From the NCBI GenBank assembly GCA_017654935.2, contig CM065713.1, positions 18,748,375-18,812,374 on the forward strand: DNA of 64,000 nucleotides, in the 5' to 3' direction. Of this stretch, positions 3,627 to 53,500 are shown one piece after another (the stretch's first letter is position 1; every line of letters begins with the position of its first letter). Below the pieces are notes generated by a model. The model was not told the DNA's origin. It saw nothing but the letters and a program-made list of their open reading frames with translations, and did not search any database. Made by a program: the position numbers and the translations under genes. This DNA is from Phymorhynchus buccinoides (Eukaryota; Mollusca; Gastropoda; Neogastropoda; Raphitomidae).

Positions 3627-4979
3627 AACTCTGAACACAACTTCGCCTCACATGGACACACATGGACAGACACACATCATTGAATCAAACTTTTATTTTT
3701 CTCTTCTACTGTCCGATGATGTGCAAGTCATGAAAAATTCTAGGGGGGGTTAATAGTTACAGTGGGGTGGGCTTTAAGAAATATAGGGAATTTTAAAAGT
3801 TAAGGAAATAATCTAGCTGATGATGGACATGCTGGGCCTAACTATTTCTTAGGCGCACAATGGCAGCATGACACATCTGCGCTCATTTGACAGGAAGCTT
3901 TCTAAGCGATTGACGACAACGAAGGAAATAATGAAACAGGAAATTATAAATGATAAGGAAGGAAATATATGTTGTTATTGTAGGATGTCAAGGATCTTGT
4001 TAAGGACTAAACTAAAATGGCAACACTGAATTTGGAGCCGGGGGGAGATATGCTGTGCATCAATGTGGGAAATGGAATCGCTACAATCACATTCGGGGAA
4101 GGGAGCGGAAAAAAGGGGGATCTATGAATTGAAATAAAATTAGAAGCACAAGCATTGCTACATAATTATCTTGAATAATAATGAAAAATAAAAGGGGGGG
4201 GGGGTTATGTACATAAGGGAAAAACAGTGCTATATGCCCAAAAGGTACTATCACTCTGGGTGGAAAGCCAGAAGGTACTGTTGTAAAAGGGGTAAAGAAG
4301 GCCGACAGTAGTACTTTCAGTACCTTCTGACTTTTACCCCAGGAGAAGGATAGTATTTTCTGGGAATAATTGTTCAATTTAACTTTTTTTTAACCTCTTC
4401 CATAAAGTGAAAATATAACGATTTTCATTATTGCTATTATAACAGGCGTCACTGTATTTTGTCATTTAGAAAACCCGATTTGTCATCCAGCAAGTAAAAC
4501 AATGGCACGAATGAGAATTTAAAAAAAAAGTTATATGACGGCTTTTTTCACATTTGATCTTTGCTGGGTTAAATCTTAGAACAAGCACCTTTATTCTGAG
4601 TGGCGATCTCTTCCAAATTGCCTTGAAATGGGTAAGTGATAGCGTCGGAATCACTTCAGGGATATTTTCATTGTATGGAAAGATTTGCAACTTGGCTTTG
4701 ACTCCCCTCCCCCACCACCCCCCCAAAAAAAACCTCAAAAAAAAAACCCCAGCCTGTAAGCAAGTTACATTTTGAATATTCAAGAATGCGAAATTGGTGG
4801 TTTTGTCTTGATTTCAGCATCGTTTTTAGCCGTTTTATCATTTGCAATGTAGGTCACAGACATTAAAATGGCAAACGTTTAGCTAAGTAGGCTTTATGTG
4901 GGGTTTTTTTGCTTGATTTTTCATTCTTCTTGTGACTTGAAAATAACTCCATCTAATCCAATCCTTTACCCGATTCAAG
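3627..4979. other. Gene-poor flank of left arm
   Basis: AT-rich single-copy-looking DNA with G, A and T homopolymers (for example near 4193 and 4735). I see no convincing exon. From about 3836 it is mirrored by 52250-53500. The sequence around 3968-3984 holds one copy of a 16-bp motif that is amplified in the right arm. Confidence 0.6.
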
Positions 4980-5560
4980 GCAAAATTAGGAGGAAATAAA
5001 CTGCTTAAGCAAATGTTAACATCATTCATTAGCTCACTGGGGACGAACGAGCCGGAGCCGGCACATGAGAGTTGTCAAGAGGTTTGGATTTCTGCCTTGT
5101 AACCAACTTTCAAGAGTCACGTCGTAATCTACTTTTAGTTTGCTTTGACCTTTCGTCTTTGAAATCAACCAATCATTGCAGACTTTACTTTCATTTTTGG
5201 CTGCAGAGGTGTGTGTCAGAGATCGGAATGTGAAACTTGACTTCTTTCTGTGTGTACCATGTTTTGGTCAATAGGAAACGAAAGACCAAGATCATGAAAA
5301 TCTGATACTTTACGATAAATTAGTGCATGATGTTGCTAAACTTTTTCTGAAAATATTGGTCCCTAACTCTTCATGTATGTTTGGCGACTGGTTTTCGAAC
5401 CTAATCCAACGAAACTACGGTTGTAAGGGGAAGCAACTGGTCAGTGCTGAGCGAGATATAAAAAAAAATGTGTGAAACTGTAAAAGTACTGATGAAGTGC
5501 AAACCTCTGCCAGGGGGTTTCACAAAAATCACAAGTGCTGACAGGAGTAAATTCTCTAAG
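4980..5560. repeat. Dispersed repeat, copy A (left arm)
   Basis: This block resembles 10940-11400 in the same arm. Shared landmarks in the same order are CAATCATTGCAGACTTTACT (5171-5190 here), an upstream AATCTA.TTTTAGT stretch, a TGACCTTTC stretch, and GGGAAGCAACTGGT near the end. The similarity is patchy, so this is an old unclassified interspersed repeat. Its mirror copy is at about 51770-52260. Confidence 0.55.
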
Positions 5561-5674
5561 TGCAGCAGGTATCGCGCTTTACTGGCAACTCTTGACTTTA
5601 ATACAAATTAACATACAAACGGCAGCTATGTCTAACCTGGCAAGTCTTGTACAGCATATCGTAAACATCTGCCG

Positions 5675-6416
5675 TCATCATCATCATGGGCATCAACATC
5701 ATAATCATCCTCGTCATCATCGTCGCCATCAATACCGTCATCATCATAATCCTCCTCGTCGTCATAGTCAATATCGTTGTCCCCATCAATACCGTCATAG
5801 TCCTCGTCATCATCGTCAATATCGTTGTCCCCATCAATACCGTCATCATAATCCTCCTCGTCATCATCGTCAATATCGTTGTCCCCATCAATACCGTCAT
5901 CATAATCCTCCTCGTCATCGTCAATATCGTTGTCCCCATCAATACCGTCATCATCATAATCCTCATCATCGTCAATATCGTTGTCGCCATCAATACCGTC
6001 ATCATCATCATAATCCTCGTCATCGTCAATATCGTTGTCCCCATCAATGCCGTCATCATCATCATAATCCTCGTCATTGTCAATATTGTTGTCGCCATCA
6101 ATACCGTCGTCATCATCGTCAATATTGTTGTCCCCATCAATGCCGTCGTCATAATCCTCGTCATCGTCAATATTGTTGTCCCCATCAATGCCGTCATAAT
6201 CCTCCTTGTCGTCATCGTCAATATTGTTGTCCCCATCAATACCGTCATCATCATAATCCTCCTCCTCGTCATCAATATTGTTGTCCCCATCAATACCGTC
6301 ATCATCATCATCATCCTCATCGTCATTATTGTTGTCGCAATCAATACCGTCATCATCATCATAATCCTCGTCATCATCAATATGGTTGTCCCCATCAATA
6401 CCGTCATCAGAATCCA
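5675..6416 (-). repeat. Asp-codon (GAT/GAC) minisatellite, left arm
   Basis: Degenerate tandem repeat with units of roughly 40-50 bp built from CAT/CGT trinucleotides, with the landmark GTCCCCATCAATACCGTCAT. On the minus strand one frame is open for 264 codons and reads as acidic units such as DDGIDGDNDIDDDEDYD. Reasons to doubt coding: the frame is closed by a TAA just upstream without a usable ATG or 3' splice site between, all three plus-strand frames are also largely open, and the right-arm copy carries frame-breaking indels. I treat it as a trinucleotide-based minisatellite. Confidence 0.85.
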
Positions 6417-6589
6417 AGCACCACACGTTTACGAACAGTTATAAAGGCAGCAAACGGATACATGAAGTGTAATGTAACAAGGGTGCTGTTAACTCTTTCT
6501 ACACGAGGGCACGCTATATATCCCTTGCATAACCATTCAAAACGATGGTACACTATAGCGTGCATAGAATTAGAGAGAGAGGGGGAGTG

Positions 6590-6800
6590 TGGGTGTGAGT
6601 GGATGCATGTTTTGTACAAGTGTATGTTTGTGTAAGTGTGTTTGTGTGCATTTCAGTGAGAATGTGTATGTGTGCAAGAACACGTTCACTCGCATGCGTG
6701 CACATGCATGTGTGTGAGTGTTTCAATGCTGATTGCAAAGCACTTTGTGCTCAATAAAAAGAGCTATGTAACTGTCAGTGTCTGTTTATTATTATTATTA
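6590..6800 (+). repeat. GT-rich tract and decayed retroelement 3' tail
   Basis: A (TG)-rich stretch is followed at 6730-6800 by GATTGCAAAGCACTTTGTGC, a degraded GCTATGTAA and a (TTA)n run. This resembles the better preserved tail at 8120-8198 (GATTGTAAAGCGCTTTGGGC, GCGCTATATAAATG, then ATT repeats). Tails of this kind end L2/CR1-group LINEs and the SINEs that use them. The mirror copy is at about 50575-50650. Confidence 0.5.
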
Positions 6801-7438
6801 AAACATTCTTAGTTTACAACTCGGCAAGCAGCAGGTTTGATCAGTTCTATCTACATGTCTCCCAAACCGTACAGCAAAGCAAAACGAATTATGTACAAAA
6901 ACAAACGCCTACTCCAATGCCATAAAACTTGACCTATAGCACATACTGCTGTCCAACCGTTGAATGAAAATCTGTTTACAGTTGCGAGAGGACAAAATGC
7001 TCTTTTTTTAGGTACTGAACATTTAAATTTGAAAAAAAGCCAAACAAAACAAGAACAATTTTTTTTAAACTGATGCAGGAAAAAAAAAATTAACAAAAAA
7101 TATCACACACAAATCAAGCAGTTAATCACTAACAATTCATTAAAAATGAAAATCATTAAAAAAAAGAGTTTATAAAAAAAAATAGCAATCACTCAAAAAG
7201 TGAACTAAAGTAAAGGATTAAAGGATTAAAAAACAAAAAGCAAAGAGTTGATGAATTACGACGTTTACACGAGTGATCCCAAAAGGAAGAATTGAAGCGT
7301 TGCGCTTACACGAGATAGCGAAAAAGGATTCACAAGAAAAGGGAAAGCAAGGAGTGGAAGTGTCCTATACAGAAATTCCAGTCAGTTCATCAACCAATTG
7401 TCCTTCCCCTTGCTCATCCCAGGACATGTGTCGGCCAA
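6801..7438. other. AT-rich stretch, 3' flank of ETHE1 exon C (left)
   Basis: A/T homopolymer-rich DNA. It lies downstream of the ETHE1 stop codon on the minus strand, so it may include the 3' UTR. I do not see a clear poly(A) signal with supporting context and see no other gene. Confidence 0.4.
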
Positions 7439-7503
7439 TCAGGATTGCTGTTGCTCGTCGGCATCATACACACCACACACCAGGTTGGCTGGCAAAGCTT
7501 TGT
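7439..7503 (-). CDS. ETHE1: ETHE1-like terminal coding exon (exon C), left arm
   Basis: Last coding exon of a persulfide dioxygenase gene, minus strand. A TTTTCAG acceptor lies just above 7503 and the stop codon is at 7439-7441. With the G carried over from exon B it reads DKALPANLVCGVYDADEQQQS and then stops. The ETHE1 family ends with a similar segment (D-A-PAN--CG). The phase (one base before, two after) joins exactly to exon B at 13022-13138. The protein acts in the mitochondrial matrix, oxidising glutathione persulfide to sulfite. This exon only closes the metallo-beta-lactamase fold and carries no metal ligand. The coding sequence is the same as in the right arm (49849-49913). Confidence 0.85.
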
Positions 7504-7534
7504 CTGAAAACACACATAACATGAGTTATTTTTC

Positions 7535-7642
7535 GAGTTACTTTCCATTCTGAGGACAGAATGAAACAAAGCTGTCAAGCTCACTCCTTTATCCTCAATA
7601 AAGATCATTTTGACTTGACTTGACTTGACTTGACTTGACACA
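7535..7642 (+). mobile_element. Retroelement 3' end with (TTGAC)n tail, left arm
   Basis: CAATAAAGATCATTTTGACT is followed by four to five TTGAC units. Diverged copies of the same ~80-bp segment occur at 49700-49790 (mirror) and on the minus strand at 57262-57334, outside the palindrome. The dispersed copies and a short tandem tail are typical of the 3' end of a non-LTR retroelement or its SINE. The family is not identified. Confidence 0.55.
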
Positions 7643-7809
7643 CACACACATAACTAAATAACAATGCATGACAAATAAGGTGTGAGACTTTAGCATAAAT
7701 TGAGACGTTTCATTTTGTCCTTTATGGTGTGGCACTCACCTCGGGGACCTTCCCCAACGCCAGCTGTCCTCGCATCCCTGTGGCTGAGACAGGATGTGCC
7801 CTGGGCAAG

Positions 7810-8060
7810 GCATCTCCACTATGTGTGCTTGTGTGTGTTTTGGTGTTGTGGGTTGTGTGTGCACGCATGTGTGTGTCTTTGTTTTTGTGCGTGTCTGTGT
7901 GTCTGTCTGCGTGCATACGTTTTTGTGTGAGGGTGTTTGTGTATGTGTGTTGGTGTATGTGGTCAGTCTATGCAGCTCGGTTGCTGTGCTTTACCGAATG
8001 GGGTATGAACGAGTTGGCGTCGATAAATATGTGTGTGTGTGTGTGTGTGTGTTTAGAGAG
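7810..8060 (+). repeat. (GT)n-rich low-complexity tract
   Basis: Interrupted TG/GTGTGC microsatellite ending in a pure (TG)n run at about 8030-8052. The mirror copy at 49280-49540 is shorter and more interrupted. Confidence 0.9.
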
Positions 8061-8089
8061 AGAGAGTTGCTTTGTATATGCGCTGTTGC

Positions 8090-8198
8090 TGGTTAATGCT
8101 GTTTTTGTTGTCTGTTGATGAATCATTGATTGTAAAGCGCTTTGGGCTCATCTGAGGTAAAGCGCTATATAAATGTACAATTATTATTATTATTATTA
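8090..8198 (+). mobile_element. LINE/SINE 3' tail fragment, left arm
   Basis: GATTGTAAAGCGCTTTGGGC, then AAAGCGCTATATAAATG, then an (ATT)n run. The same arrangement ends the clear LINE remnant at 14499-15022 (GCGCCTT, AAAGGCGCTATAGAAAT, ATT repeats), so I infer an L2/CR1-group LINE or a SINE with that 3' end. Mirror copy 49140-49240. Confidence 0.6.
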
Positions 8199-8199
8199 A

Positions 8200-8910
8200 A
8201 CAAATTATACTATAGCCCAGCCTGGTGGTCATTATGAACTGGCGTACATACATAACATACGGACGAAAATGATCGGGGCCATAACACTTTTCAACTCGTT
8301 CCACAATTCAGAGCAGACTCGGAACTGGGGAACGCTACTGAGGCCTAATTCCGATTATTCTGAGTCCAAAACTTGTCTGAATCCATGTTTTCTCAATCCA
8401 AACCATGTTTTGGGGGTCATTTCTTTTAGTCACTTTTCCAGTCTTCGTTTCACTTATGTTTGACACTCCTTCAGTTTTTAATGTTAAAATGGAACAAAAT
8501 CAAAAAATCATCCCTACACGAGCCTCAGAAAATACTGCAATAAGTTTTCATTAACAATGATAGTAATAAGGAGACTAGTAATTTCGATTTAACGGCGATT
8601 TCAAAGTGGAAATTAAATTTGGATCAACCAGTACTTTTGTCAAAACTGAATCACAAACAGTGGTGAGTTTTGCTGTATTTTTTATTTGCAATTTTTTTTC
8701 TAGGCAACCCCAGGCCAGGAATGAACCTTTACCAGACTTCGGGGTCGCCCACGACCCATTGACACAAAAAAAATGTTATATCTCTAAAACTATTTAAGCA
8801 ATCTTCATGAAATTTCATGACTTTGTCAAAAATGTAAATGGCTTTAAGTGTGTTAAATTTCATTAATGTGCATAAAATATAAATGACGTAATATGACGCG
8901 TCATTTTAAC
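8200..8910. other. Single-copy-looking DNA without a recognised gene
   Basis: No supportable exon. The segment is useful for arm comparison: about 8260-8400 is almost identical to the right arm, while 8400-8600 differs at many positions. Confidence 0.4.
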
Positions 8911-9024
8911 ATACTTGTCCAGATGGCGCGGGTCTCCTACGACCCCTACTTTAAAGAGCAGAAATATGTCACTGCAGTGCATTGAGTATGGGTTGTGGGA
9001 GACCCGCGCCATCTGGAGAAGTAT
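8911..9024. mobile_element. Hairpin (inverted-repeat) element, left arm
   Basis: Two arms of about 36 bp, TCCAGATGGCGCGGGTCTCC near 8919 and its near-complement GGAGACCCGCGCCATCTGGA near 8998-9017, face each other across a ~35-bp loop. This is a MITE-like foldback. One arm is closely related to the unit of the adjacent 66/54-bp array, which carries GAGACCCGCATCATCTGGA. Mirror copy at about 48296-48412. Confidence 0.65.
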
Positions 9025-9059
9025 AAACACATGGTGACTCTTTGACGAGTATGGGTCCT

Positions 9060-10932
9060 GGAGGACCCGCATCATCTAGACAGGGATAAATACTGTTAAA
9101 ATGCATGTAAAAATCTGTGGTTACGAGGAGACCCGCATCATCTGGACAGGGATAAACACTGTTAAAATGCATGTAAAAATCTGTGGTTACGAGGAGACCC
9201 GCATCATCTGGACAGGGATAAACACTGTTAAAATGCATGTAAAAATCTGTGGTTACGAGGAGACCCGCATCATCTGGACAGGGATAAATACTGTTAAAAT
9301 GCATGTAAAAATCTGTGGGTACGAGGAGACCCGCATCATCTGGACAGGGATAAATACTGTTAAAATCTGTGGGTACGAGGAGACCCGCATCATCTGGAGA
9401 GGGATAAATACTGTTAAAATGCATGTAAAAATCTGTGGGTACGAGGAGACCCGCATCATCTGGAGAGGGATAAATACTGTTAAAATGCATGTAAAAATCT
9501 GTGGGTACGAGGAGACCCGCATCATCTGGACAGGGATAAATACTGTTAAAATCTGTGGGTACGAGGAGACCCGCATCATCTGGAGAGGGATAAATACTGT
9601 TAAAATGCATGTAAAAATCTGTGGTTACGAGGAGACCCGCATCATCTGGACAGGGATAAATACTGTTAAAATGCATGTAAAAATCTGTGGTTACGAGGAG
9701 ACCCGCATCATCTGGACAGGGATAAATACTGTTAAAATGCATGTAAAAATCTGTGGGTACGAGGAGACCCGCATCATCTGGACAGGGATAAATACTGTTA
9801 AAATCTGTGGGTACGAGGAGACCCGCATCATCTGGAGAGGGATAAATACTGTTAAAATGCATGTAAAAATCTGTGGTTACGAGGAGACCCGCATCATCTG
9901 GACAGGGATAAACACTGTTAAAATGCATGTAAAAATCTGTGGGTACGAGGAGACCCGCATCATCTGGACAGGGATAAATACTGTTAAAATGCATGTAAAA
10001 ATCTGTGGTTACGAGGAGACCCGCATCATCTGGACAGGGATAAACTGTTAAAATGCATGTAAAAATCTGTGGGTACGAGGAGACCCGCATCATCTGGACA
10101 GGGATAAATACTGTTAAAATCTGTGGGTACGAGGAGACCCGCATCATCTGGAGAGGGATAAATACTGTTAAAATCTGTGGTTACGAGGAGACCCGCATCA
10201 TCTGGACAGGGATAAACTGTTAAAATGCATGTAAAAATCTGTGGGTACAAGGAGACCCGCATCATCTGGACAGGGATAAATACTGTTAAAATCTGTGGGT
10301 ACGAGGAGACCCGCATCATCTGGACAGGGATAAATACTGTTAAAATCTGTGGGTACGAGGAGACCCGCATCATCTGGAGAGGGATAAATACTGTTAAAAT
10401 CTGTGGTTACGAGGAGACCCGCATCATCTGGACAGGGATAAACACTGTTAAAATGCATGTAAAAATCTGTGGGTACGAGGAGACCCGCATCATCTGGAGA
10501 GGGATAAATACTGTTAAAATGCATGTAAAAATCTGTGGTTACGAGGAGACCCGCATCATCTGGAGAGGGATAAATACTGTTAAAATGCAAGTAAAAATCT
10601 GTGGGTACGAGGAGACCCGCATCATCTGGACAGGGATAAATACTGTTAAAATCTGTGGTTACGAGGAGACCCGCATCATCTGGACAGGGATAAATACTGT
10701 TAAAATGCATGTAAAAATCTGTGGGTACGAGGAGACCCGCATCATCTGGACAGGGATAAATACTGTTAAAATCTGTGGTTACGAGGAGACCCGCATCATC
10801 TGGACAGGGATAAATACTGTTAAAATCTGTGGGTACGAGGAGACCCGCATCATCTGGAGAGGGATAAATACTGTTAAAATGCATGTAGAAATCTGTGGGT
10901 ACGAGGAGACCCGCATCATCTGGACAAGCAAC
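9060..10932. repeat. 66/54-bp minisatellite, about 30 units, left arm
   Basis: The long unit (66 bp) contains GTTAAAATGCATGTAAAAAT, ACGAGGAGACCCGCATCATC and GGATAAATACT. The short unit (54 bp) lacks 12 bp around GCATGTAAAAAT. The two lengths are interspersed. Since 66 and 54 are multiples of three, frames stay open for hundreds of codons on both strands, which is not evidence for a protein. The right arm has only about three units at the same place (48030-48250). Confidence 0.95.
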
Positions 10933-10939
10933 ATCCGGT

Positions 10940-11400
10940 AAAGGTTAATGATGTTCGCCTCAAGGCAGTCAGTGATGTCTTGAAGGGGTTTTAAGCGTTT
11001 GAATTCTGGCGTGTAAACAGCTTTCCAGTTGTGGCGTTACAATCTAATTTTAGTGTTCCCTGACCTTTCCTCTCTTAAAAGCGACCAATCATTGCAGACT
11101 TTACTTTGTGCTTTTGGCTAGATGGGAGGGGGGTGGGAGGAAATGTTGGGCTGTCCCAAATTCCTTCATTATACAGGTCTGTAAGTTGCTTCCGTTAATA
11201 GAAGACAAAATGATGGAGTCTGACATTTACCATCCATTGATTAATACATGGAGTTGCTTATCTGTTACAAACATACTTTTCATAACTTACAGTACAAAAA
11301 AAAAAAAGTTACACTATCTTTGGTGAATTATTTTACGAACCCAATCTCAGTCCCAGAAAGAAAAGCGGGAAGCAACTGGTGACATGGTATTAGTATTATT
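10940..11400. repeat. Dispersed repeat, copy B (left arm)
   Basis: Related to 4980-5560 through the shared core CAATCATTGCAGACTTTACT and collinear flanking landmarks. Mirror copy at about 47560-48000. Unclassified. Confidence 0.5.
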
Positions 11401-11404
11401 AGTT

Positions 11405-11485
11405 TTAGGTACTTTATAGTCACAGAGGCGTCTGTGAAATTCGGGTTGCTCCCACTTGGAGAGCGCGTCGCAGCCAGAGGCAATT
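11405..11485. repeat. Direct repeat flanking the 584-bp MITE, unit 1
   Basis: TAGTCACAGAGGCGTCTGTG followed by a GCTCCCACTTGGAGAG segment. It is a diverged direct copy of 12317-12385 (TAGTCACAGAGACGAGTCTC, GCTCCCACCTGGAGAG). An older repeated sequence lies on both sides of the MITE. Confidence 0.5.
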
Positions 11486-11720
11486 TTTGTGTGACTGATG
11501 AGGAAGGAAAGGGAGGGGGGTAAATTTGGACCAAATGACAACTTTTTCATTGCCACTGGGTTTAATGTGTGCATGGGCACACGGGACCTCGGTTTATCGT
11601 CTCATCCAAAAGACCGTAAGGCCTAGTGTAAAGTGAGAGGAAAAATCCCCTGTACCCAGGTTCGAACTCTGGTTCAAGAGATGGGAGTTGGCTTCAGAGA
11701 CGCACATCTGTGTGTGAGAA

Positions 11721-12304
11721 TTACCGTCATTTTCGGACTATAAGGCGATATTTTTTTCTCCAATTTCGACCTATGCGCCTAATAAACGTGGGCGCCCTAT
11801 TAGTGAACAAAATCGTGAGAAGAGAGGCAACGATTGCCGTACTCAGTACAGTCTACTATGAGTCAGACATCGAAAGTGGTCACGAGTCGCCGATACGACG
11901 AATACTCACGTTAAAATGCTTCAAAATCCCTATTATCGTCCTGAGATACCGTCCAACAGATGCCACAACCCTTCGTTGGATGTAAAAAGCATCGTTGTAG
12001 AGCTTAAAATGCCATAATTCTACCAGTTTTCGCGAAGAAAAGTCCAAACACAACAACCGGAAGTCGCAAAAACGGAAGTTCGATTATTTGAGAAGGGAGC
12101 CAACTCTCATTTATGACAGCAGTAACGGCGGTCGGTAAGCGTTTACAGGACGTGTACGGGTTTCAAACTTCGACTTTCTTTTGCGAGGTGTGTATCGCCT
12201 TATAAACGAGGGCGCCTTTTACTTTAAAATGTTCTGATTTTTCTTGAAAATTGCCCTATTCGTCTTATACACAGCAGCGCCTAATGATCCGAAAAATATT
12301 GTAA
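11721..12304. mobile_element. 584-bp non-autonomous DNA transposon (MITE), left arm
   Basis: Imperfect terminal inverted repeats: the left end is TTACCGTCATTTTCGGACTA, and the right end read in reverse complement is TTACAATATTTTTCGGATCA. Both continue into an AAGGCG/TAGGCG motif. Subterminal ATAAACG.GGGCGCC motifs also repeat inside both ends. I see no transposase ORF, so it would need a transposase supplied elsewhere. A related solo end lies at about 13203-13270. Mirror copy 46643-47229. Confidence 0.7.
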
Positions 12305-12316
12305 CCTTTTGGTATC

Positions 12317-12385
12317 TTCTAGTCACAGAGACGAGTCTCTATGGAATTCAGGCTGCTCCCACCTGGAGAGTGTGTCAGCTTGACG
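12317..12385. repeat. Direct repeat flanking the 584-bp MITE, unit 2
   Basis: Diverged direct copy of 11405-11485, immediately beyond the MITE's right end. Confidence 0.5.
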
Positions 12386-12547
12386 CGCAGCTTCTACGCT
12401 GGCCGCATGCATCAATTTTCACGAGTCATATAACGAATAGAACCTGTTCTATTTTCGAGCGTCAAGCTGCGTGAACTGACCAATCGAAACGCAAGGAACC
12501 AAAAAACAAGGAACACCACTCCACGTTATGCGACCTACCAGACAATC

Positions 12548-12745
12548 ATGGCGGACGACGGCGACACTGCTATCTGGATTGAGCCGTATCAAAGCCAGGA
12601 AAACCTTTACAACACTGAGTTAAAGGCCTACCATGACCGAGAGAAGACTCCTGAAAGTCGTCTTTCTTTCCATTCTTGCTGTTTACAAACAGAAGTGACA
12701 TCACAGTTAACTTTTATTGGTTCCCTAAATGCAGGTGACGCCTAG
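12548..12745 (+). pseudogene. MADF/Myb-SANT-like gene fragment, left arm
   Basis: ATG in an ATGGCGG context followed by MADDGDTAIWIEPYQSQENL and then YNTELKAYHDREKT. The segment I-E-Y----NLYN--LK-YHDR matches the first helix and turn of MADF-type Myb/SANT DNA-binding domains, as in transcription factors and in the Myb-like proteins of Harbinger transposons. Only about 35 residues resemble the domain, after which the frame drifts into unrelated sequence. The right-arm copy reads ILIELYQ where this one reads IWIEPYQ. The family prefers hydrophobic residues there, so the left copy carries two likely damaging changes. Confidence 0.5.
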
Positions 12746-12976
12746 TATGCGACTGGCAATGCGTGCGTCGTATGTCAAGCATGCTTGCATCACTGACGCG
12801 CGTCATGATGTTGACGCCCAGTGTGCGACTGGCAACGCGTGCGTCGTACGCCAAACATGCTTGCATCACTGATGCGCGTCATGATGTTGACGCCCAGTGT
12901 GCGACTGGCAACGCGTGCGTCGTACACCAAACATGCAGCATCACTGACGCGCGTCATGATGTTGACACTGGTGTGC
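12732..12976. repeat. CpG-rich ~76-bp tandem repeat, about 3 copies, left arm
   Basis: Units contain GTGCGACTGGCAACGCGTGC, CATGCTTGCATCACTGA and CGCGCGTCATGATGTTGAC. The block is unusually rich in CpG for this window and sits in the intron just downstream of ETHE1 exon B. Mirror copy 45965-46208. Confidence 0.85.
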
Positions 12977-13021
12977 CAAGGGCCTGACACTGAAGTAACA
13001 CGTCTGTTATTTCTTCCTTAC

Positions 13022-13138
13022 CGATCTGCTTGGGGTAAGGTAGGTCGAGTTTCTTCATGATTTCAATAAACTCGCTGCGTGAGCGTGTCAGCCGGCGGTT
13101 GAACTTCAGTTCTTCATCCACGGTGCTGCTCGTCTGAC
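13022..13138 (-). CDS. ETHE1: ETHE1-like internal coding exon (exon B), left arm
   Basis: Exon of 117 bp on the minus strand, with a TTTTCAG acceptor at 13139-13145 and a GTAAGG donor at 13016-13021. It reads QTSSTVDEELKFNRRLTRSR and then SEFIEIMKKLDLPYPKQI. This matches the ETHE1 family segment in which S-TV-EE precedes N-RLT and then F--IM--L-LP-P-QI. The first base pair completes a Gly codon with exon A and the last base starts the Asp codon completed by exon C, so all three exons join in frame. This is the C-terminal region after the last metal ligand. It is identical to the right-arm copy, which suggests constraint or recent common origin. Confidence 0.9.
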
Positions 13139-13159
13139 CTGAAAACACCAAACGGTTAC

Positions 13160-13275
13160 CGGTACCGTATTTCACAAAGTAATGTACCGTATTTCACAAA
13201 GTAATGTACCCTATTTTTCGGACTACAAGGCGATCCTTTTTCCCCCCGACTTGACCCCTGTGCCTTGTAATGTGA
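13160..13275. repeat. Tandem 22-bp duplication and solo MITE end, left arm
   Basis: TACCGTATTTCACAAAGTAA occurs twice in a row and is followed by CTATTTTTCGGACTACAAGG, which is related to the terminal repeat of the 584-bp MITE. A GTGCCTTGTAATGTGAC segment then leads straight into the 52-bp array. Mirror copy about 45680-45785. Confidence 0.55.
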
Positions 13276-14447: not shown

Positions 14448-14476
14448 ACAAAATTGTAATTTTGTGTCAAATTCGG

Positions 14477-14496: not shown

Positions 14497-14498
14497 TA

Positions 14499-43700: not shown

Positions 43701-44252
43701 CTTATCATAAAACACACACCCCAAATGTGGGAGGTGCGCCTTGCACCGCTTTGTACAGACACGGCGCACCTTATCATAAAACACACACCCCAAATGTGGG
43801 AGGTGCGCCTTGCACCGCTTTGTACAGACACGGCGCACCTTATCATAAAACACACACCCCAAATGTGGGAGGTGCACCTTGCACCGCTTTGTACAGACAC
43901 GGCGCACCTTATCATAAAACACACCCCAAATGTGGGAGGTGCGCCTTGCACCGCTTTGTACAGACACGGCGCACCTTATAAAACACACCCCAAATGTGGG
44001 AGGTGCACCTTGCACCGCTTTGTACAGACACGGCGCACCTTATCATAAAACACACACCCCAAATGTGGGAGGTGCGCCTTGCACCGCTTTGTACAGACAC
44101 GGCGCGCCTTATCATAAAACACACCCCAAATGTGGGAGGTGCGCCTTGCACCGCTTTGTACAGACACGGCGCGCCTTATCATAAAACACACACCCCAAAT
44201 GTGGGAGGTGCGCCTTGCACCGCTTTGTACAGACACGGCGCGCCTTATCATA
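40797..44252. repeat. 67/69-bp minisatellite, about 51 units, right arm
   Basis: Reverse complement of the 15023-18524 array, with an extra class of units that have C-run length variants (ACACCCCCCAAATG). Homology and near-equal size indicate allelic or duplicated arrays. Confidence 0.97.
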
Positions 44253-44780
44253 ATAATAATAATAATAATAATTGATAGTATTTCTATAGCGCCTTTCTAT
44301 AATTATTTTACACTCAAGGCGCTTCCATTCACTGATACACCCGCAATCGCACAAAAACATTATCACCCATTCATTCACCCAGGTACAAGATCAAGAAGAA
44401 ACATTTACAAACCGAATGAGCTTTGAAAGTAGTGAGTCTTGAGTTTAGCTTTGAAAGTAGAGATAGTTGGTTCATGGCGGAGATCGACTGGGAGGGAATT
44501 CCAAACAGCAGGGGCACTGAAACTGAAACTGCGGTCACCAAATGATTTTAGATTTGTTTTTGGAACTTTCAGAAGTTTTGTGTTTGAGGACCTGAGTGAG
44601 CGGGAAGGAGTGTAGGTGTGAAGAGCACTGGAGAGGTAAGGCGGAAGGGTCTGTTCAAAGTGACGGAAGGATAGAACAGCCAGCTTATACTGAAGGCGGA
44701 ACTGCACAGGGAGCACACACCCCAACTGTGGGAGGTGCGCCTTGCACCGCTTTGTACAGACACGGCGCGCCTTATCATAA
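44253..44780 (-). mobile_element. 5'-truncated LINE fragment, right arm
   Basis: Mirror of 14499-15022: ATT-repeat tail at 44250-44273, stop codon at 44405-44407 on the minus strand, and the same reverse-transcriptase C-terminus with a few substitutions (for example SAPAVWNSLP). The single satellite unit at 44711-44780 again reads in frame into the LINE (KAHLPQLGCVLPVQFRLQ). Confidence 0.85.
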
Positions 44781-44819
44781 AACCCCCCCCCCGAATTTGA
44801 CACAAAATTACAATTTTGT

Positions 44820-45051
44820 TACAGTGGAACCTCCCTTATAAGACCTCCCATTATAAGACTCCCTCCCATTTAAGACCTACTTCTCTGAGACATTGCCCTT
44901 CTTTATAAGTATTAAAATTACCTCCCTTATAAGACCCCTCCCTTATAAGACCTCTTTTGGGATGATTGTTGAAGGTCCCAGGCCGTGAGGACGTAAAACA
45001 GTATTTTCTCTCTCTGATTGTTGAAGGTCTTACAAGGGACGTTCCACTGTA
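44820..45051. mobile_element. 232-bp MITE, right arm
   Basis: Starts TACAGTGGAACCTCCCTTAT and ends AAGGGACGTTCCACTGTA. Same length as 14216-14447. Confidence 0.7.
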
Positions 45052-45690
45052 TTATATTTTCTTGCTGTCTTGCTAATCACATTACAAGGGACGTTCCACT
45101 GTATTATATTTTCTTGCTGTTTTGCTAGTCACATTACAAGGGACATTCCACTGTATTATATTTTCTTACTGTTTTGCTAGTCACATTACAAGGGATATTC
45201 CACTGTATTATATTTTCTTGCTGTCTTGCTAGTCACACTACAAGGGACGTTCCACTGTATTATATTTTCTTGCTGTTTTGCTAGTCACATTACAAGGGAC
45301 ATTCCACTGTATTATATTTTCTTGCTGTTTTGCTAGTCACATTATAAGGGACATTCCACTGTATTATATTTTCTTGCTGTTTTGCTAGTCACATTACAAG
45401 GGACGTTCCACTGTATTATATTTTCTTACTGTCTTGCTAGTCACATTACAATTTCCCAACTTACTGTCTTGCTAGTCATTACTGTATTATTCTTACTGTC
45501 TTGCTAGTCACATTACAATTCTTACTGTCTTGCTAGTCAGATTACAAGGGACGTTCCACTGTATTATATTTTCTTACTGTCTTGCTAGTCACATTACAAT
45601 TCTTACTGTCTTGCTAGTCACATTACAAGGGACGTTCCACTGTATTATATTTTCTTGCTGTCTTGCTAGTCACATTACAAGGCACAGGGG
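45052..45690. repeat. 52-bp minisatellite with short variants, right arm
   Basis: Reverse complement of 13276-14215 but about 300 bp shorter and with its own variants (GACATTCC, GATATTCC, and a scrambled patch at 45450-45500). Confidence 0.92.
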
Positions 45691-45806
45691 TCAAGTCGGG
45701 GGGAAAAAGGATCGCCTTGTAGTCCGAAAAATAGGGTACATTACTTTGTGAAATACGGTACATTACTTTGTGAAATACGGTACCGGTAACCGTTTGGTGT
45801 TTTCAG

Positions 45807-45923
45807 GTCAGACGAGCAGCACCGTGGATGAAGAACTGAAGTTCAACCGCCGGCTGACACGCTCACGCAGCGAGTTTATTGAAATCATGAAGAAACTCGA
45901 CCTACCTTACCCCAAGCAGATCG
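45807..45923 (+). CDS. ETHE1: ETHE1-like internal coding exon (exon B), right arm
   Basis: Plus-strand copy of 13022-13138, 117 bp, with acceptor GGTGTTTTCAG and donor GTAAGG. The protein reading is identical to the left arm (QTSSTVDEELKFNRRLTRSR, SEFIEIMKKLDLPYPKQI). It is joined upstream to exon A across a ~5.6-kb intron that holds the 67/69-bp array and LINE, and downstream to exon C across a ~3.9-kb intron with MITEs and the MADF fragment. Confidence 0.9.
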
Positions 45924-45964
45924 GTAAGGAAGAAATAACAGACGTGTTACTTCAGTGTCAGGCC

Positions 45965-46208
45965 CTTGGCACACCAGTGTCAACATCATGACGCGCGTCA
46001 GTGATGCTGCATGTTTGGTGTACGACGCACGCGTTGCCAGTCGCACACTGGGCGTCAACATCATGACGCGCGTCAGTGATGCAAGCATGTTTGGCGTACG
46101 ACGCACGCGTTGCCAGTCGCACACTGGGCGTCAACATCATGACGCGCGTCAGTGATGCAAGCATGCTTGACGTACGACGCACGCATTGCCAGTCGCATAC
46201 TAGGCGTC
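45965..46208. repeat. CpG-rich ~76-bp tandem repeat, right arm
   Basis: Mirror of 12732-12976, about three units. Confidence 0.85.
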
Positions 46209-46397
46209 ATCTCCATTTAGGGAACCAATAAAAGTTAACTGTAATGTCACTTCCGTTTGTAAACAGCAAGAATGGAAAGAAAGAAGACTTTCAGGAGTCT
46301 TATCTCGGTCATGGTAGGCCTTTAACTCAGTGTTGTAAAGGTTTTCCTGGCTTTGATACAGCTCAATCAAGATAGCAGTGTCGCCGTCGTCCGCCAT
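46200..46397 (-). pseudogene. MADF/Myb-SANT-like gene fragment, right arm
   Basis: Minus-strand ATG at 46395-46397 followed by MADDGDTAILIELYQSQENL and YNTELKAYHDRDKT. This copy keeps the hydrophobic LIELY expected in a MADF helix, so it is closer to the ancestral sequence than the left copy. Only the first part of the domain is present and no further exon was found downstream. It lies antisense inside an ETHE1 intron, next to the 584-bp MITE, so it may be part of a decayed Harbinger-type transposon or a retained first exon. Confidence 0.5.
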
Positions 46398-46642
46398 GAT
46401 TGTCTGGTAGGTCGCATAACGTGGAGTGGTGTTCCTTGTTTTTTGGTTCCTTGCGTTTCGATTGGTCAGTTCACGCAGCTTGACGCTCGAAAATAGAACA
46501 GGTTCTATTCGTCATATGACTCGTGAAAATTGATGCATGCGGCCAGCGTAGAAGCTGCGCGTCAAGCTGACACACTCTCCAGGTGGGAGCAGCCTGAATT
46601 TCACATAGAGACTCGTCTCTGTGACTAGAAGATACCAAAAGG

Positions 46643-47229
46643 TTACAATGTTTTTCGGATCATTAGGCGCTGCTGTGTATAAGGCGAATAGGGCAATTTT
46701 CAAGAAAAATCTGAAAATTTTAAAGTAAAAGGCGCCCTCGTTTATAAGGCGATACACACCTCGCAAAAGAAAGTCGAAGTTTGAAAACCCGTACACGTCC
46801 TGTAAACGCTTACCGACTGCCATTACTGCTGTCATAAACGAGAGTTGGCTCCCTTCTCAAATTAATCGAACTTCCGTTTTTGCGACTTCCGGTTGTTGTG
46901 TTTGGACTTTTCTTCGCGAAAACTGGTAGAATTATGGCATTTTAAACTCTACAACGATGCTTTTTACATCCAATGAAGGGTTATGGCATCTGTTGGACGG
47001 TATCTCAGACGATAATAGGGATTTTGAAGCATTTTAACGTGAGTATTCGTCGTATCGGCGACTCGTGACCACTTTCGATGTCTGACTCACAGTAGACTGT
47101 ACTGAGTACGGCAATCGTTGCCTCTCTTCTCACGATTTTTTGTTCACTAATAGGGCGCCCTCGTTTATTAGGAGCATAGGTCGAAATTGGAGAAAAAAAT
47201 ATCGCCTTATAGTCCGAAAATGACGGTAA
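46643..47229. mobile_element. 584-bp-type MITE, right arm
   Basis: Mirror of 11721-12304 with a few percent substitutions and small indels (for example an A-run difference near 47140). Confidence 0.7.
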
Positions 47230-47559
47230 TTCTCACACACAGATGTGCGTCTCTGAAGCCAACTCCCATCTCTTGAACCAGAGTTCGAACCTGGGTACAG
47301 GGATTTTTTCCTCTCACTTTACACTAGACCTTACGGTCTTTCAGGATGAGACGATAAACCGAGGTCCCATGTGCCCATGCACACATTAAACCCCAGTGGC
47401 AATGAAAAAGTTGTCATTTGGTCCAAATTTACCCCCCTCCCTTTCCTTCCTCATCAGTCACACAAAAATCGCCTCTGGCTGTGACGCGCTCTCCAAAGTG
47501 GGAGCAACCCGAATTTCACAGACGCCTCTGTGACTATAAAGTACCTAAAACTAATAATA
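47230..47559. other. Intron DNA with tRNA B-box-like motif, right arm
   Basis: GAGTTCGAACC at 47281-47291 (reverse complement of a GGTTCGAACTC B box). The left counterpart is 11659-11669. No convincing A box, so this may be a decayed SINE rather than a tRNA gene. Confidence 0.3.
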
Positions 47560-48000
47560 CTAATACCATGTCACCAGTTGCTTCCCGCTTTTCTTTCTGG
47601 GACTGAGATTGGGTTCGTAAAATAATTCACCAAAGATAGTGTAACTTTTTTTTGTTTGTACTGTAAGTTATGAAAAGTATGTTTGTAACAGATAAGCAAC
47701 TCCATGTATTAATCAATGGATGGTAAATGTCAGACTCCATCGTTTTGTCTTCTATTAACGGAAACAACTTACAGACCTGTATAATGAAGGAATTTGGGAC
47801 AGCCCAACATTTCCTCCCACCCCCCTCCCATCTAGCCAAAAGCACAAAGTAAAGTCTGCAATGATTGGTCGCTTTTAAGAGAGGAAAGGTCAGGGAACAC
47901 TAAAATTAGACTAACGCCACAACTGGAAAGCTGTTTACACGCCAGAATTCAAACGCTTAAAACCCCTTCAAGACATCACTCACTGCCTTGAGGCGAACAT
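47560..48000. repeat. Dispersed repeat, copy B (right arm)
   Basis: Mirror of 10940-11400, including AGTAAAGTCTGCAATGATTG. Confidence 0.5.
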
Positions 48001-48029
48001 CATTAACCTTTACTGGAAGTTGCTTGTGA

Positions 48030-48250
48030 TTATACTTCTCCAGATGATGCGGGTCTCCTCGTACCCACAGATTTCTACATGCATTTTAACAGTATTTATC
48101 CCTCTCCAGATGATGCGGGTCTCCTCGTAACCACAGATTTTTACATGCATTTTAACAGTATTTATCCCTCTCCAGATGATGCGGGTCTCCTCGTACCCAC
48201 AGATTTTTTACATGCATTTTAACAGTATTTATCCCCTGTCCAGATGATGC
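48030..48250. repeat. 66-bp minisatellite, about 3 units, right arm
   Basis: TCCAGATGATGCGGGTCTCC, TTTTACATGCATTTTAACAG. The left arm has about 30 units. All three are long-type. Confidence 0.9.
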
Positions 48251-48295
48251 GGGTTCTCCAGGACCCCATACTCGTCAAAGAGTCACCTTGTGTTT

Positions 48296-48412
48296 ATACT
48301 TCTCCAGATGGCGCGGGTCTCCCACGACCCATACTCAATGCACTGCAGTGACATATTTCGGCTCTTTAAAGTATGGGTCGTAGGAGACCCGCGCCATCTG
48401 GACAAGTATGTT
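48296..48412. mobile_element. Hairpin (inverted-repeat) element, right arm
   Basis: Arms TCCAGATGGCGCGGGTCTCC and GGAGACCCGCGCCATCTGGA around a short loop. Mirror of 8911-9024. Confidence 0.65.
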
Positions 48413-49139
48413 AAAATGACGCGTCATATTACGTCATTTATATTTTATGCACATTAATGAAATTTAACACACCTAAAGCCATTTACGTTTTTGACAAAGT
48501 CATGAAATTTCATGAAGATTGCTTAAATAGTTTTAGAGATATAACATTTTTTGTGTGTCAATGGGTCGTGGGCGACCCATCTTGTAAACACACGAAGTCT
48601 GGTAAAGTTAATTCCTGGCCTGGGGTGTTGCCTAGAAAAAAAATTGCAAATAAAAAATACAGCAAAACTCACCACTGTTTGTGATTCAGTTTTGACAAAA
48701 GTACTGGTTGATCCAAATTTAATTTCCACTTTGAAATCGCCGTTAAGATTGAAATTACTAGTCTCCTTATTACTATCATTATTAATGAAGACTTATTGGA
48801 GCATTTTCTGAGGCTCATGTAGTGCCGATTTTGTTTTGTACCATTTTCAACATTAAAAATTGAAACAGAAGTGTCACACATAAGTGAAACGAAAGTAGGA
48901 AGGCTGATGAAGAAAAGTAACTCGAAAAATGTGGTTTGGATTGATAAAACATGGATTCAGACAAGTTTTGGACTCAGAATAATCGGAATTAGGCCTCAGT
49001 AGCGTTCCCCAGTTCCGAGTCTGCTCTGAATTGTGGAACGAGTTGAAAAGTGTTATGGCCCCGATCATTTTCGTCCGTATGTTATGTATGTACGCCAGTT
49101 CATAATGACCACCAGGCTGGGCTATAGTAATAATTTGTT

Positions 49140-49245
49140 TAATAATAATAATAATAATTGTACATTTATATAGCGCTTTACCTCAGATGAGCCCAAAGCG
49201 CTTTACAATCATGAATCAATGATTCATCAACAGACAACAAAAAAC
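49140..49245 (-). mobile_element. LINE/SINE 3' tail fragment, right arm
   Basis: AAT repeats, then TATATAGCGCTTTAC and GCCCAAAGCGCTTTACAATC. Mirror of 8090-8198. Confidence 0.6.
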
Positions 49246-49279
49246 AGCATTAACCAGCAACAGCGCCATATACAAAGCA

Positions 49280-49540
49280 ACTCTCTCTCTTTGTCCTACA
49301 CACACACACACACACACAACACACACAAATATTTCGACGCCAACTCGTTTCATACCCCATTCGGTAAGCCACAGCAAACGAGCCGCATAAGATTGACCAC
49401 ATATACACAAACACCCTCACACAAAAACGTACGCACGCAGACACACACACAAACACACACAACAACAAAGACACACACATGCGTGCACACACAACCTCAC
49501 AACACCAAAACACCACACAAGCACACATAGTGGAGATGCC
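49280..49540. repeat. (CA)n-rich low-complexity tract
   Basis: Mirror of 7810-8060, with different repeat lengths. Confidence 0.85.
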
Positions 49541-49699
49541 GTGCCAAGGGCACATCCCCACTGTCTCAGCCACAGGGATGCGAGGGAAAGCTGGCGTTGG
49601 GGAAGGTCCCCGAGGTGAGTGCCACCATAAAGGACAAAATGAAACGTCTCAATTTATGCTAAAGTCTCACACCTTATTTGTCATGCATTGTTATTTAGT

Positions 49700-49790
49700 T
49701 ATGTGTTTGTGTCGAAGTCAAGTCAAGTCAATGTCAGTCAAAATGATCTTTAACTGACGATAAAGGAGTGAGCTTGACAGCTTTGTTTCA
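49700..49790 (-). mobile_element. Retroelement 3' end with decayed (GTCAA)n tail, right arm
   Basis: GTCAAGTCAAGTCAATGTCA followed by GTCAAAATGATCTTTAACTG. More degraded than the left copy at 7535-7642. Confidence 0.5.
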
Positions 49791-49848
49791 TTCTGTCCTC
49801 AGAATGGAAAGTAACTCGAAAAATAACTCATGTTATGTGTGTTTTCAG

Positions 49849-49913
49849 ACAAAGCTTTGCCAGCCAACCTGGTGTGTGGTGTGTATGATGCCGACGAGCA
49901 ACAGCAATCCTGA
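49849..49913 (+). CDS. ETHE1: ETHE1-like terminal coding exon (exon C), right arm
   Basis: Acceptor GTGTGTTTTCAG, then ACAAAGCTTTGCCAGCCAAC onward, stop TGA at 49911-49913. With the G from exon B it reads DKALPANLVCGVYDADEQQQS, the expected ETHE1 C-terminus. The three right-arm exons give about 90 codons, the last third of a protein that is normally about 250 residues. Confidence 0.85.
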
Positions 49914-50574
49914 TTGGCCGACACATGTCCTGGGATGAGCAAGGGGAAGGACAATTGGTTGATGAACTGACTGGAATTTCTGTATAGGACACTTCCACTC
50001 CTTGCTTTCCCTTTTCTTGTGAATCCTTTTTCGCTATCTCGTGTAAGCGCAACGCTTCAATTCTTCCTTTTGGGATCACTCGTGTAAACGTCGTAATTCA
50101 TCAACTCTTTGCTTTTTGTTTTTTAATCCTTTAATCCTTTACTTTAGTTCACTTTTTGACAGTGATTGCTATTTTTTTTTATAAACTCTTTTTTTTAATG
50201 ATTTTCATTTTTAATTGAATTGTTAGTGATTAACTGCTTGATTTGTGTGTCGATATTTTTTGTTAATTTTTTTTTTCCTGCATCAGTTTAAAAAAAATTG
50301 TTCTTGTTTTGTTTGGCTTTTTTTCAAATTTAAATGTTCAGTACCTAAAAAAAGAGCATTTTGTCCTCTCTCGCGTCCCCCATCTCGCAACTGTAAACAG
50401 ATTTTCATTCAACGGTTGGACAGCAGTATGTGCTATAGGTCAAGTTTGATGGCATTGGAGGAGGTGTTTGTTTTTGTACACAATTCGTTTTGCTTTGCTG
50501 TACGGTTTGGGAGACATGTAGATAGAACTGATCAAACCTGCTGCTTGCCGAGTTGTAAACTAACAATGTTTTAA

Positions 50575-50820
50575 TAGTAATAATAAACAGACACTGACAG
50601 TTACATAGCTCTTTTTATTGAGCACAAAGTGCTTTGCAATCAGCATTGAAACACTCACACACATGCATGTGCACGCATGCGAGCGTGAACGTGTTCTTGC
50701 ACACAGACACACACACATTATCACTGTAATGCACACACACACACACGTACACAAACATACACTTGTACAAAACACGCGCACACACACAAACACACACTCC
50801 CCCTCTCTCTCTAATTCTAT
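50575..50820. repeat. Decayed retroelement tail and CA-rich tract, right arm
   Basis: AATAATAA, GAGCACAAAGTGCTTTGCAA, then (CA)n-rich DNA. Mirror of 6590-6800. Confidence 0.5.
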
Positions 50821-50976
50821 GCACGCTTATAGTGTACCATCGTTTCTGAATGGTTATGCAAGGGATATATAGCGTGCCCTCGTGTAGAAAGAGTTAACAG
50901 CACCCTTGTTACATTACACTTCATGTATCCGTTTGCTGCCTTTATAACTGTTCGTAAACGTGTGGTGCTTGGATTC

Positions 50977-51605
50977 TGATGACGGTATTGATGGGGACAA
51001 CCATATTGATGATGACGAGGATTATGATGATGATGACGGCATTGATGGGGACAACGATATTGACGATGACGACGGAGGATTATGATGATGACGGTATTGA
51101 TGGGGACAACAATATTGACGATGACGACAAGGATTATGATGACGGCATTGATGGGACCACAATATTGACGATGACGAGGATGACGGCATTGATGGGGACA
51201 ACAATATTGACGATGATGATGACGGTATTGATGGCGACAACAATATTGACAATGACGAGGATTATGATGATGATGACGGCATTGATGGGGACAACGATAT
51301 TGACGATGACGAGGATTATGATGATGACGGTATTGATGGCGACAACAATATTGACAATGACGAGGATTATGATGATGATGACGGCATTGATGGGGGACAA
51401 CGATATTGACGATGACGACGAGGAGGACTATGATGATGACGGTATTGATGGCAACAACGATATTGACGATGACGACGAGGAGGACTATGATGATGACGGT
51501 ATTGATGGCAACAACGATATTGACGATGACGACGAGGAGGATTATGATGATGATGGTATTGATGGCGACGAGGATGATGATTATGATGTTGATGCCCATG
51601 ATGAT
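50977..51605 (+). repeat. Asp-codon (GAT/GAC) minisatellite, right arm
   Basis: Mirror of 5675-6416, about 110 bp shorter. Frame breaks at about 51068, 51150 and 51393 interrupt the acidic reading frame that is open on the left. The segment ends with GACTTGCCAG/GTTAGA, a weak donor-like site present in both arms. Confidence 0.85.
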
Positions 51606-51769
51606 GATGACGGCAGATGTTTACGATATGCTGTACAAGACTTGCCAGGTTAGACACAGCTGCCGTTTGTATGTTAATTTGTATTAAAGTCAAGAGTTGC
51701 CAGTAAAGTGCGATACCTGCTGCACTTAGAGAATTTACTCCTGTCAGCACTTGTGATTTTTGTGAAACC

Positions 51770-52260
51770 CCCTGGCAGAGGTTTGCACTTCATCAGTACT
51801 TTTACAGTTTCACACATTTTTTTTTATATCTCGCTCAGCACTGACCAGTTGCTTCCCCTTACAACCGTAGTTTCGTTGGATTAGGTTCGAAAACCAGTCG
51901 CCAAACATACATGAAGAGTTGGGGACCAATATTGTCAGGAAAAGTTTAGCAACTAATTTATCGTAAAGTATCAGATTTTCATGATCTTGGTCTTTCGTTT
52001 CCTATTGACCAAAGCATGGTACACACAGAAAGAAGTCAAGTTTCACATTCCGATCTCCGACACACACCTCTGCAGCCAAAAACTGAAAGTAAAGTCTGCA
52101 ATGATCGATTGATTTCAATAGAAGAAAGGTCAAAGCAAACTAAAAGTAGATTACGACGTGACTCTTGAAAGTTGGTTACAAGGCAGAAATCCAAACCTCT
52201 TGACAACTCTCATGTGCCGGCTCCAGTGAGCTAATGAATGATGTTAACATTTGCTTAAGC
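51770..52260. repeat. Dispersed repeat, copy A (right arm)
   Basis: Mirror of 4980-5560 with clear divergence. For example it lacks about nine bases of the left GTGCATGATGTTGC stretch near 51950. Confidence 0.5.
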
Positions 52261-53258
52261 AGTTTATTTCCTCCTAATTTTGCCTTGAATCGGGTAAAGG
52301 ATTGGATTAGATCGAGTTATTTTCAAGTCGCAAGAAGAATGAAAAATCAAGCAAAAAAACCCCACATAAAGCCTACTTAGCTAAACGTTTGCCATTTTAA
52401 TGTCTGTGACCTACATTGCAAATTATAAAACAGCTAAAAACGATGCCGAAAGCAAGACAAAACCACCAATTTCGCATTCTTGAATATTCCAAAATGTAAC
52501 TCGCTTACAGGCTGGGGTTTTTTTTGGGGGGTGGGGGAGGGGGAGTCAAAGCCAAGTTTTTACAAATCTTCCTATACAATGAAAATATCCCTAAAGGGAA
52601 TTTGCTTCCGACGCTATCACTTACCCATTTCAAGGCAATTTGGAAGAGATCGCCACTCAGAATAAAGGTGCTTGTTCTAAGATTTAACCCAGCAAAGATC
52701 AAATGTGAAAAAAGCCGTCATATAACTTTTTTTTAAAATTCTCATTCGTGCCATTGTTTTACTTGCTGGATGACAAATCGGGTTTTTTAAATGACAAAAT
52801 ACAGTGACGCCCGTTATAATAGCAATAATGAAAATCGTTATATTTTCACTTTATGGAAGAGGTTAAAAAAAAGTTAAATTGAACAGAATTATTCCCAGAA
52901 AATACTATTTCTCCTGGGGTAAAAGTCAGAAGGTACTGAAAGTACTACTGTCGGCCTTCTTTACCCCTTTTACAACAGTACCTTCTGGCTTTCCACCCAG
53001 AGTGATAGTACCTTTTGGGCATATAGCACTGTTTTTCCCTTATGTACATTACCCCCCCCCCCCCTTTATTTTTCATTATTATTCAAGATAATTATGTAGC
53101 AATGCTTGTGCTTCTAATTTTATTTCAATTCATAGATCCCCCTTTTTTCCGCTCCCTTCCCCGAATGTGATTGTAGCGATTCCATTTCCCACATTGATGC
53201 ACAGCACATCTCCCCCCGGCTCCAAATTCAGTGTTGCCATTTTAGTTTAGACTTGATG
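52261..53258. other. Gene-poor flank of right arm
   Basis: AT-rich DNA with homopolymers, no gene seen. Counterpart of 4000-4980. Confidence 0.6.
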
Positions 53259-53364
53259 TCCTACAATAACAACATCCTACAATAACAACATCCTACAACA
53301 TCCTACAATAACAACATCCTACAATAACAATATCCTACAATAACAACATCCTACAATAACAACA
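53259..53364. repeat. 16-bp tandem repeat, about 6 units, right arm only
   Basis: Unit TCCTACAATAACAACA with one shortened copy. The left arm has a single unit at about 3968-3984, so this expansion postdates the split of the two arms. Confidence 0.9.
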
Positions 53365-53500
53365 TATATTTCCTTCCTTATCATTTATAATTTCCTGTTT
53401 CATTATTTCCTTCGTTGTTGTCAATCGCTTAGAAAGCTTCCTGTCAAATGACGCGCAGATTGTGTCATGCTGCCATGTTCGCCTAAGAAATAGTTAGGCC

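Follow-up and report, generated by a model that had tools for sequence, protein, structure and literature searches.

A stretch of 64,000 nucleotides of the Phymorhynchus buccinoides assembly GCA_017654935.2 (the window; C34:18748375-18812374, C34 being the scaffold CM065713.1 of a 2.12 Gb assembly) contains a large gene-bearing palindrome. Its left arm, L (window positions 3835-29270), recurs inverted as its right arm, R (29273-53500), and both arms hold the 3' half of ETHE1, the persulfide dioxygenase gene; a complete copy of the gene, copy C, lies upstream on the same scaffold. The palindrome is very probably an assembly product in which two haplotypes of one locus were joined head to head: the pattern is real, but the chromosome structure it depicts would not be. 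Under such a join the arms are two alleles of one locus and not two arms on one chromosome. The preliminary description of this sequence had offered two readings, a remarkable genuine palindrome and a head-to-head joining of haplotypes by the assembler. The latter is favoured by the one-way satellite of the complete copy, the lack of exons 1-4 in the arms, the switching of copy C between the arms and a raw-read-like inversion at the left end of the contig; the former is disfavoured. Since an error of assembly explains the palindrome best, the palindrome amounts to a warning to users of the assembly rather than to a new genome structure. Read at face value, the scaffold would add ETHE1 copies and a large palindrome with genes to the chromosome, and would thereby mislead counts of genes, satellites, inversions and palindromes.

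The inverted arms and the complete ETHE1 copy

Comparison of the window with itself resolves the two arms into collinear inverted matches, each scoring thousands of bits: 3835-9287 with 53500-48030, 10731-13961 with 48259-45030, 15089-21842 with 44253-37491, and 21977-29270 with 37301-29802. The mirrored order of blocks described earlier is borne out by these matches, and so is the strand switch at 29270/29273 with CA between the arms, the earlier coordinates being correct within 1-2 bases. The axis reads ...ATAGGGGA-CA-TCCCCTAT..., with 73 identical bases mirrored on each side. The CA (29271-29272) sits within a 44-bp satellite, between units of plus and of minus orientation, and a string spanning the join occurs only once in the 292 kb of sequence examined. 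At the outer side, the part of R that matches L runs through base 53500, and N begins at 53501. The outer limit of the palindrome is thus the end of the contig and not a visible biological boundary, neither outer edge of the duplication being visible, and the exact coincidence of the two counts for an assembly join. The palindromic contig (C34:18731781-18801874) is flanked by two 500-N gaps. Such gaps also separate it from copy C, and there is no N between L and R. Only 500-N runs were taken as assembly gaps; N runs of 2500, 5000, 7500 and at least 1376 bases were not counted.

Each arm carries the final three of the seven ETHE1 exons, exons 5, 6 and 7, with the 5' end of the gene pointing toward the axis in both, so that the earlier observation of gene exons in opposite orientation in the two arms stands. 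Exon numbers follow the match groups of copy C, seven in all, and the splice limits of the arm exons were read by eye. One arm exon has a match (E=1.6e-5) in 4chl, a solved structure of ETHE1, and two joined exons are matched by 70 of 75 candidate proteins at E<=1e-8. The best of these 70 relatives is an unnamed protein (88%), and the nearest named one is that of the gastropod Babylonia areolata (83% over 69 residues). Nothing in the window convincingly matches residues 1-234 of P0001, a relative of 321 residues, and the best match confined to the upstream part of ETHE1 reaches E=0.013 over the 63 of 70 relatives that have the exon-5 motif, the 7 relatives without the exon-marking motif having been excluded from this search. 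Both arms therefore lack exons 1-4.

The complete gene lies about 109-163 kb upstream of the window, with exon 1 at 18639514 and exon 7 at 18585095. Copy C and L have the same orientation, 173 kb apart, and R is inverted. In copy C the 44-bp satellite occupies 18599497 to about 18608210, in intron 4. All 190 of its unit anchors lie on the same strand, which means that copy C traverses the satellite without a strand switch. A search of the whole assembly (18 candidates, all 18 scored) matched each of exons 5 and 6 at three places (C, L and R), and exons 2-4 at C alone; exons 1 and 7 were not listed. Comparison within the neighbourhood found two occurrences of exon 1, three of exon 7 (E<=0.01) and, at 18694681, a fragment of exon 2 (19 residues with a stop). 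A direct repeat of the 5' half of the locus stands at C34:18694820-18731223, in a contig likewise flanked by 500-N gaps; it differs from the locus at 276 of 27708 positions (1.00%) over 7 pieces.

Some smaller features of the locus were recorded alongside. The surplus 5'-half contig holds exon 1 and the damaged piece of exon 2, and its repeat is allele-like. A small local repeat lies within copy C at C34:18614413-18614947, where residues 177-203, in exon 3, have three consecutive matches; in the search of the whole assembly, part of exon 3 (residues 176-205) likewise had two further matches adjoining it in C. An open frame behind a splice-acceptor-like site at 23325-23476, with its mirror at 35799-35950, is identical between the arms and belongs to the ETHE1 intron adjoining the satellite; it has no significant match among the 70 ETHE1 relatives (best E=7.5).

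The tandem arrays are mirrored between the arms but unequal in length; the 66-bp array, for instance, has about 30 units on the left (9064-10926) against 3 on the right (48030-48259). At the outer edge of the 44-bp satellite the units follow a mirrored order in the two arms, ranking 0 among 150 null pairs over both 308 and 616 nt, and at the axis they scarcely do (14 and 26 of 150). Control edges gave mixed ranks, namely 48 and 43 of 150 (308 nt) and 30 and 12 (616 nt) for the 67-bp array, 108 and 4 of 150, then 62 and 3, for the 54-bp array, and 0 and 47 of 150 for the 74-bp array, and this makes the argument from unit order weak. Beside exon 4 the array of copy C is degenerate, its final 354 nt differing 35 times from the unit. 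Among the scored chunks, those closest to the axis have 3 differences (L) and 1 (R); the final 112 nt of L fall outside the scored chunks and are regular by eye. Long shared words, amid scattered others, place the inner part of R on the array of copy C with an offset of about 340-470 bp, short of the edge at exon 4. Given the regular chunks at the axis and this offset, both L and R seem to fall short of the exon-4 side of the satellite. In the right 54-bp array, an A-rich stretch of 189 bp (37302-37490), 40 bp of which repeat neighbouring sequence, is probably a consensus fault.

Divergence among the two arms and the complete copy

The arms align in 8/8 non-tandem blocks, over which they differ by 179 substitutions in 9399 positions (1.90%) and 63 indels, with a transition/transversion ratio (Ts/Tv) of 1.27. 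Divergence amounts to 1.95-3.55% in the three outer blocks and 0.11-1.53% in the five inner ones. When the three copies are compared over 8 blocks, copy C differs from L by 97/9421 (1.03%) and from R by 150/9578 (1.57%), against 183/9398 (1.95%) between L and R; the arms are not closer to each other than to the other copy, and in the three outer blocks they form the most different pair. Arms of true large palindromes can be kept alike by conversion. Sister arms, converting ones above all, would be expected to resemble each other more than they resemble copy C. Owing to the outer blocks the three pairs rank the opposite way, which fits two haplotypes together with a primary copy alternating between the two.

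The distribution of individual variable sites points the same way. Across a three-way alignment of 15593 sites, C agrees with L at 203 variable sites and with R at 113, L agrees with R at 44, and all three differ at 2; part of the 203 stems from a faulty stretch of R within the 54-bp array. Among the 211 variable sites of non-tandem sequence, the same classes number 111, 73 and 27, so that 184 of the 211 join C to one arm or the other. Away from gaps, sites at which C equals L and sites at which C equals R fall into 42 runs against 75 expected, and none of 5000 shuffles gave as few. The copies diverge as alleles do, which is expected of heterotype false duplication, and the 1.00% of the 5' repeat lies alongside the 1.03, 1.57 and 1.95% of the three pairs. 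Heterozygosities given in print for two related snails, 1.41% for Rapana venosa and 1.05-1.08% for coding sequences of Lautoconus ventricosus, are of the same order as these differences.

Several observations weigh against two joined haplotypes. Two blocks tie, in three inner blocks another pair differs most, and in one inner block of 392 bp L and R are the closest pair. Summed over the five inner blocks, the counts are nearly equal (L-R 15/3357, C-L 20/3371, C-R 12/3501), and for this reason the inner blocks do not discriminate. Clumped substitutions alone would also produce runs of C=L and C=R sites, and past 12 kb the two kinds of site are finely interleaved. Every copy carries private differences, so that C does not resolve cleanly into stretches of two haplotypes; possible reasons are a third copy, pooling of specimens or consensus error. 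The remaining points would also suit a genuine inverted duplication, that is, a palindrome of the ETHE1 3' half standing near the intact gene in one or both haplotypes: the axis shows neither N nor a burst of noise, the divergence of the arms declines toward it, as conversion would also yield, three slightly differing copies are present in one assembly, and L and R share 27 of the 211 non-tandem sites against C, 5 of these within a single 82-bp stretch (7013-7094).

Such a duplication is nevertheless improbable. L and R are the most different pair overall, and clearly so in the outer three blocks, the great majority of variable sites place C with one arm, and both arms appear to end before the far side of the satellite. 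The same contig, moreover, contains a raw-read-like inversion, and another surplus copy of the locus stands beside it. The arm-to-arm gene conversion envisaged in the preliminary description finds no support in the outer blocks, and a true palindrome maintained by conversion is disfavoured by the rank of the L-R pair over all blocks, the inner blocks being uninformative on either question. There is likewise only a slight chance that a head-to-head pair of ETHE1 3' halves really exists in one haplotype, near the intact gene, having arisen by exchange between homologues inside the intronic satellite, in which case the arms would have differed allelically from the start. If this were true, a strand switch within an intronic satellite would have flipped half of a gene.

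A stretch of 670 bp around exon 7 (6924-7594) contains no substitution between L and R and four indel positions, an extent of conservation seen in 0 of 20000 uniform scatters. Because the substitutions in that block are clumped, uniform scatter is too easy a null for it. Copy C departs from both arms at 5 sites within the stretch, and the idea that purifying selection there proves working alleles was dropped for both reasons.

The left end of the contig and a probable origin of the join

At its start the palindromic contig repeats its own left part in inverted and noisy form (C34:18731781-18743476; window -16593 to -4898). Measured with three sets of gap costs over the non-satellite part, this copy differs from L by 2.0-4.6% substitutions and 58-80 indels/kb, of which 78-87% are of 1 bp, with Ts/Tv of 0.21-0.33; the identical script applied to L and R gives 11-16 indels/kb and Ts/Tv of 0.91-1.08. 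At 45 sites private to L, the left-end copy has the L allele in 33, the allele of C and R in 9 and another in 3. Between the mirrored left-end parts lie 953 bp that match copy C at 98% in direct orientation. Apart from read error the mirrored parts are identical, as in a foldback of a single molecule, and the stretch has the look of an uncorrected long read folded back on itself. The abundance of 1-bp indels, combined with L alleles, makes a foldback read probable within the palindromic contig itself. An ancient inverted paralogue had also been considered for this end, but the 11-15% apparent substitutions behind it came from a gap-averse alignment, and the values obtained with other gap costs read as raw-read noise.

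The head-to-head join of two haplotypes most likely came about as follows. In the animal, ETHE1 passes through the 44-bp satellite in intron 4, as it does in copy C (C34:18585095-18639514). The anatomy of the arms suggests that sequence of the 3' half of the gene from two haplotypes ran into the satellite without attaining the exon-4 side, and that the two halves were then joined in opposite directions in the middle of the array. As the bridge, a strand-switched (foldback) read within the satellite is most likely, or else a path through a repeat graph that turned there. The surplus palindromic contig and the surplus 5'-half contig both stand on the scaffold beside the complete copy, where they presumably ended up afterwards.

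The literature offers partial precedents for such errors. The parts of PMC6977585 that bear on this describe chimeric breaks inside large repeats that were missed in another assembly and carried into it. PMC9516828, in its account of false duplications, reports allelic ones with missing exons, as well as false palindromes of raw-read length from PacBio. Heterotype (allelic) false duplication as described there resembles the present case in placing two alleles in one scaffold, in surplus copies that lack exons and, between copy C and the palindromic contig, in adjoining gaps; it differs in that here the two surplus copies face each other head to head within the satellite, with no N between them, and the scaffold also carries the complete locus. 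Conversion-kept large palindromes, of which the willow sex chromosome provides an example in the relevant part of PMC7023750, share the long inverted arms and opposed genes; here, by contrast, each arm is nearer, over all blocks, to a third, non-palindromic copy than to the other arm. Among the papers listed in literature searches, none concerned the ETHE1 locus here or exactly this head-to-head kind, a result that does not show that none exists. Joins of this sort can be tested for in sequence alone, by locating an unbroken copy of the locus and asking whether it switches between the arms.

Palindromes from foldback or missed-adapter long reads (PMC12870357 and, for PacBio palindromes of 7-17 kb, PMC9516828, in the sections dealing with them) have the same abrupt, almost spacerless strand switch, and the left end of the contig (C34:18731781-18743476) is of their kind. 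That the whole palindrome was generated from one molecule in this way, by a missed adapter or a strand switch, is nonetheless hardly credible. The two-base centre, the 73 mirrored bases at the axis, the foldback-like stretch elsewhere in the contig and the foldback reads described in those sections of PMC12870357 would all agree with it. The focal arms, however, are not identical apart from read error: they differ at 179 of 9399 positions with Ts/Tv of 1.27, and in array length and unit order, so that a divergence of 1.9% and a differing array structure mark them as coming from more than one molecule. A foldback read may have acted as the bridge at the axis alone. An older, real segmental duplication with three ETHE1 3' ends, one of them inverted by recombination between satellites, would account for the shared orientation of L and C 173 kb apart and the inversion of R, but it is very improbable in view of the switching of C between L and R, the position of the extra 5' copies between gaps and the mere 1.00% divergence of the 5' repeat.

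Coordinates of features and sequence beyond the gap

Table 1. Features of the window, in window coordinates.
Feature	Position	Strand	Remarks
47-bp satellite	1..3624	+	lies to the left of L
Left arm L	3835..29270	+	3' half of the ETHE1 locus, gene on minus strand; from self-comparison and exon matches
ETHE1 exon 7 of 7, L	7439..7503	-	with stop codon; within 6924-7594
ETHE1 exon 6 of 7, L	13022..13138	-	
ETHE1 exon 5 of 7, L	19072..19161	-	
44-bp satellite, left	23879..29270	+	5392 bp; regular nearly to the axis
Axis CA	29271..29272	.	between opposed 44-bp satellite arrays; join absent from copy C
Right arm R	29273..53500	-	second copy of the 3' half of the locus, inverted, up to the final base of the contig
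44-bp satellite, right	29273..35396	-	6124 bp; regular as far as the axis
ETHE1 exon 5, R	40159..40248	+	one amino acid differs from the L exon (L to V)
ETHE1 exon 6, R	45807..45923	+	same as the L exon
ETHE1 exon 7, R	49849..49913	+	same as the L exon
500-N gap	53501..54000	.	terminates the palindromic contig

Beyond the gap, the remains of a non-long-terminal-repeat retrotransposon occupy 59401-61619, whose endonuclease and reverse transcriptase domains fall into separate frames. The sequence at 54200-55700 is a dispersed repeat with at least 56 matches in the genome, as judged from the best 40 of 6925 candidates, which were scored.

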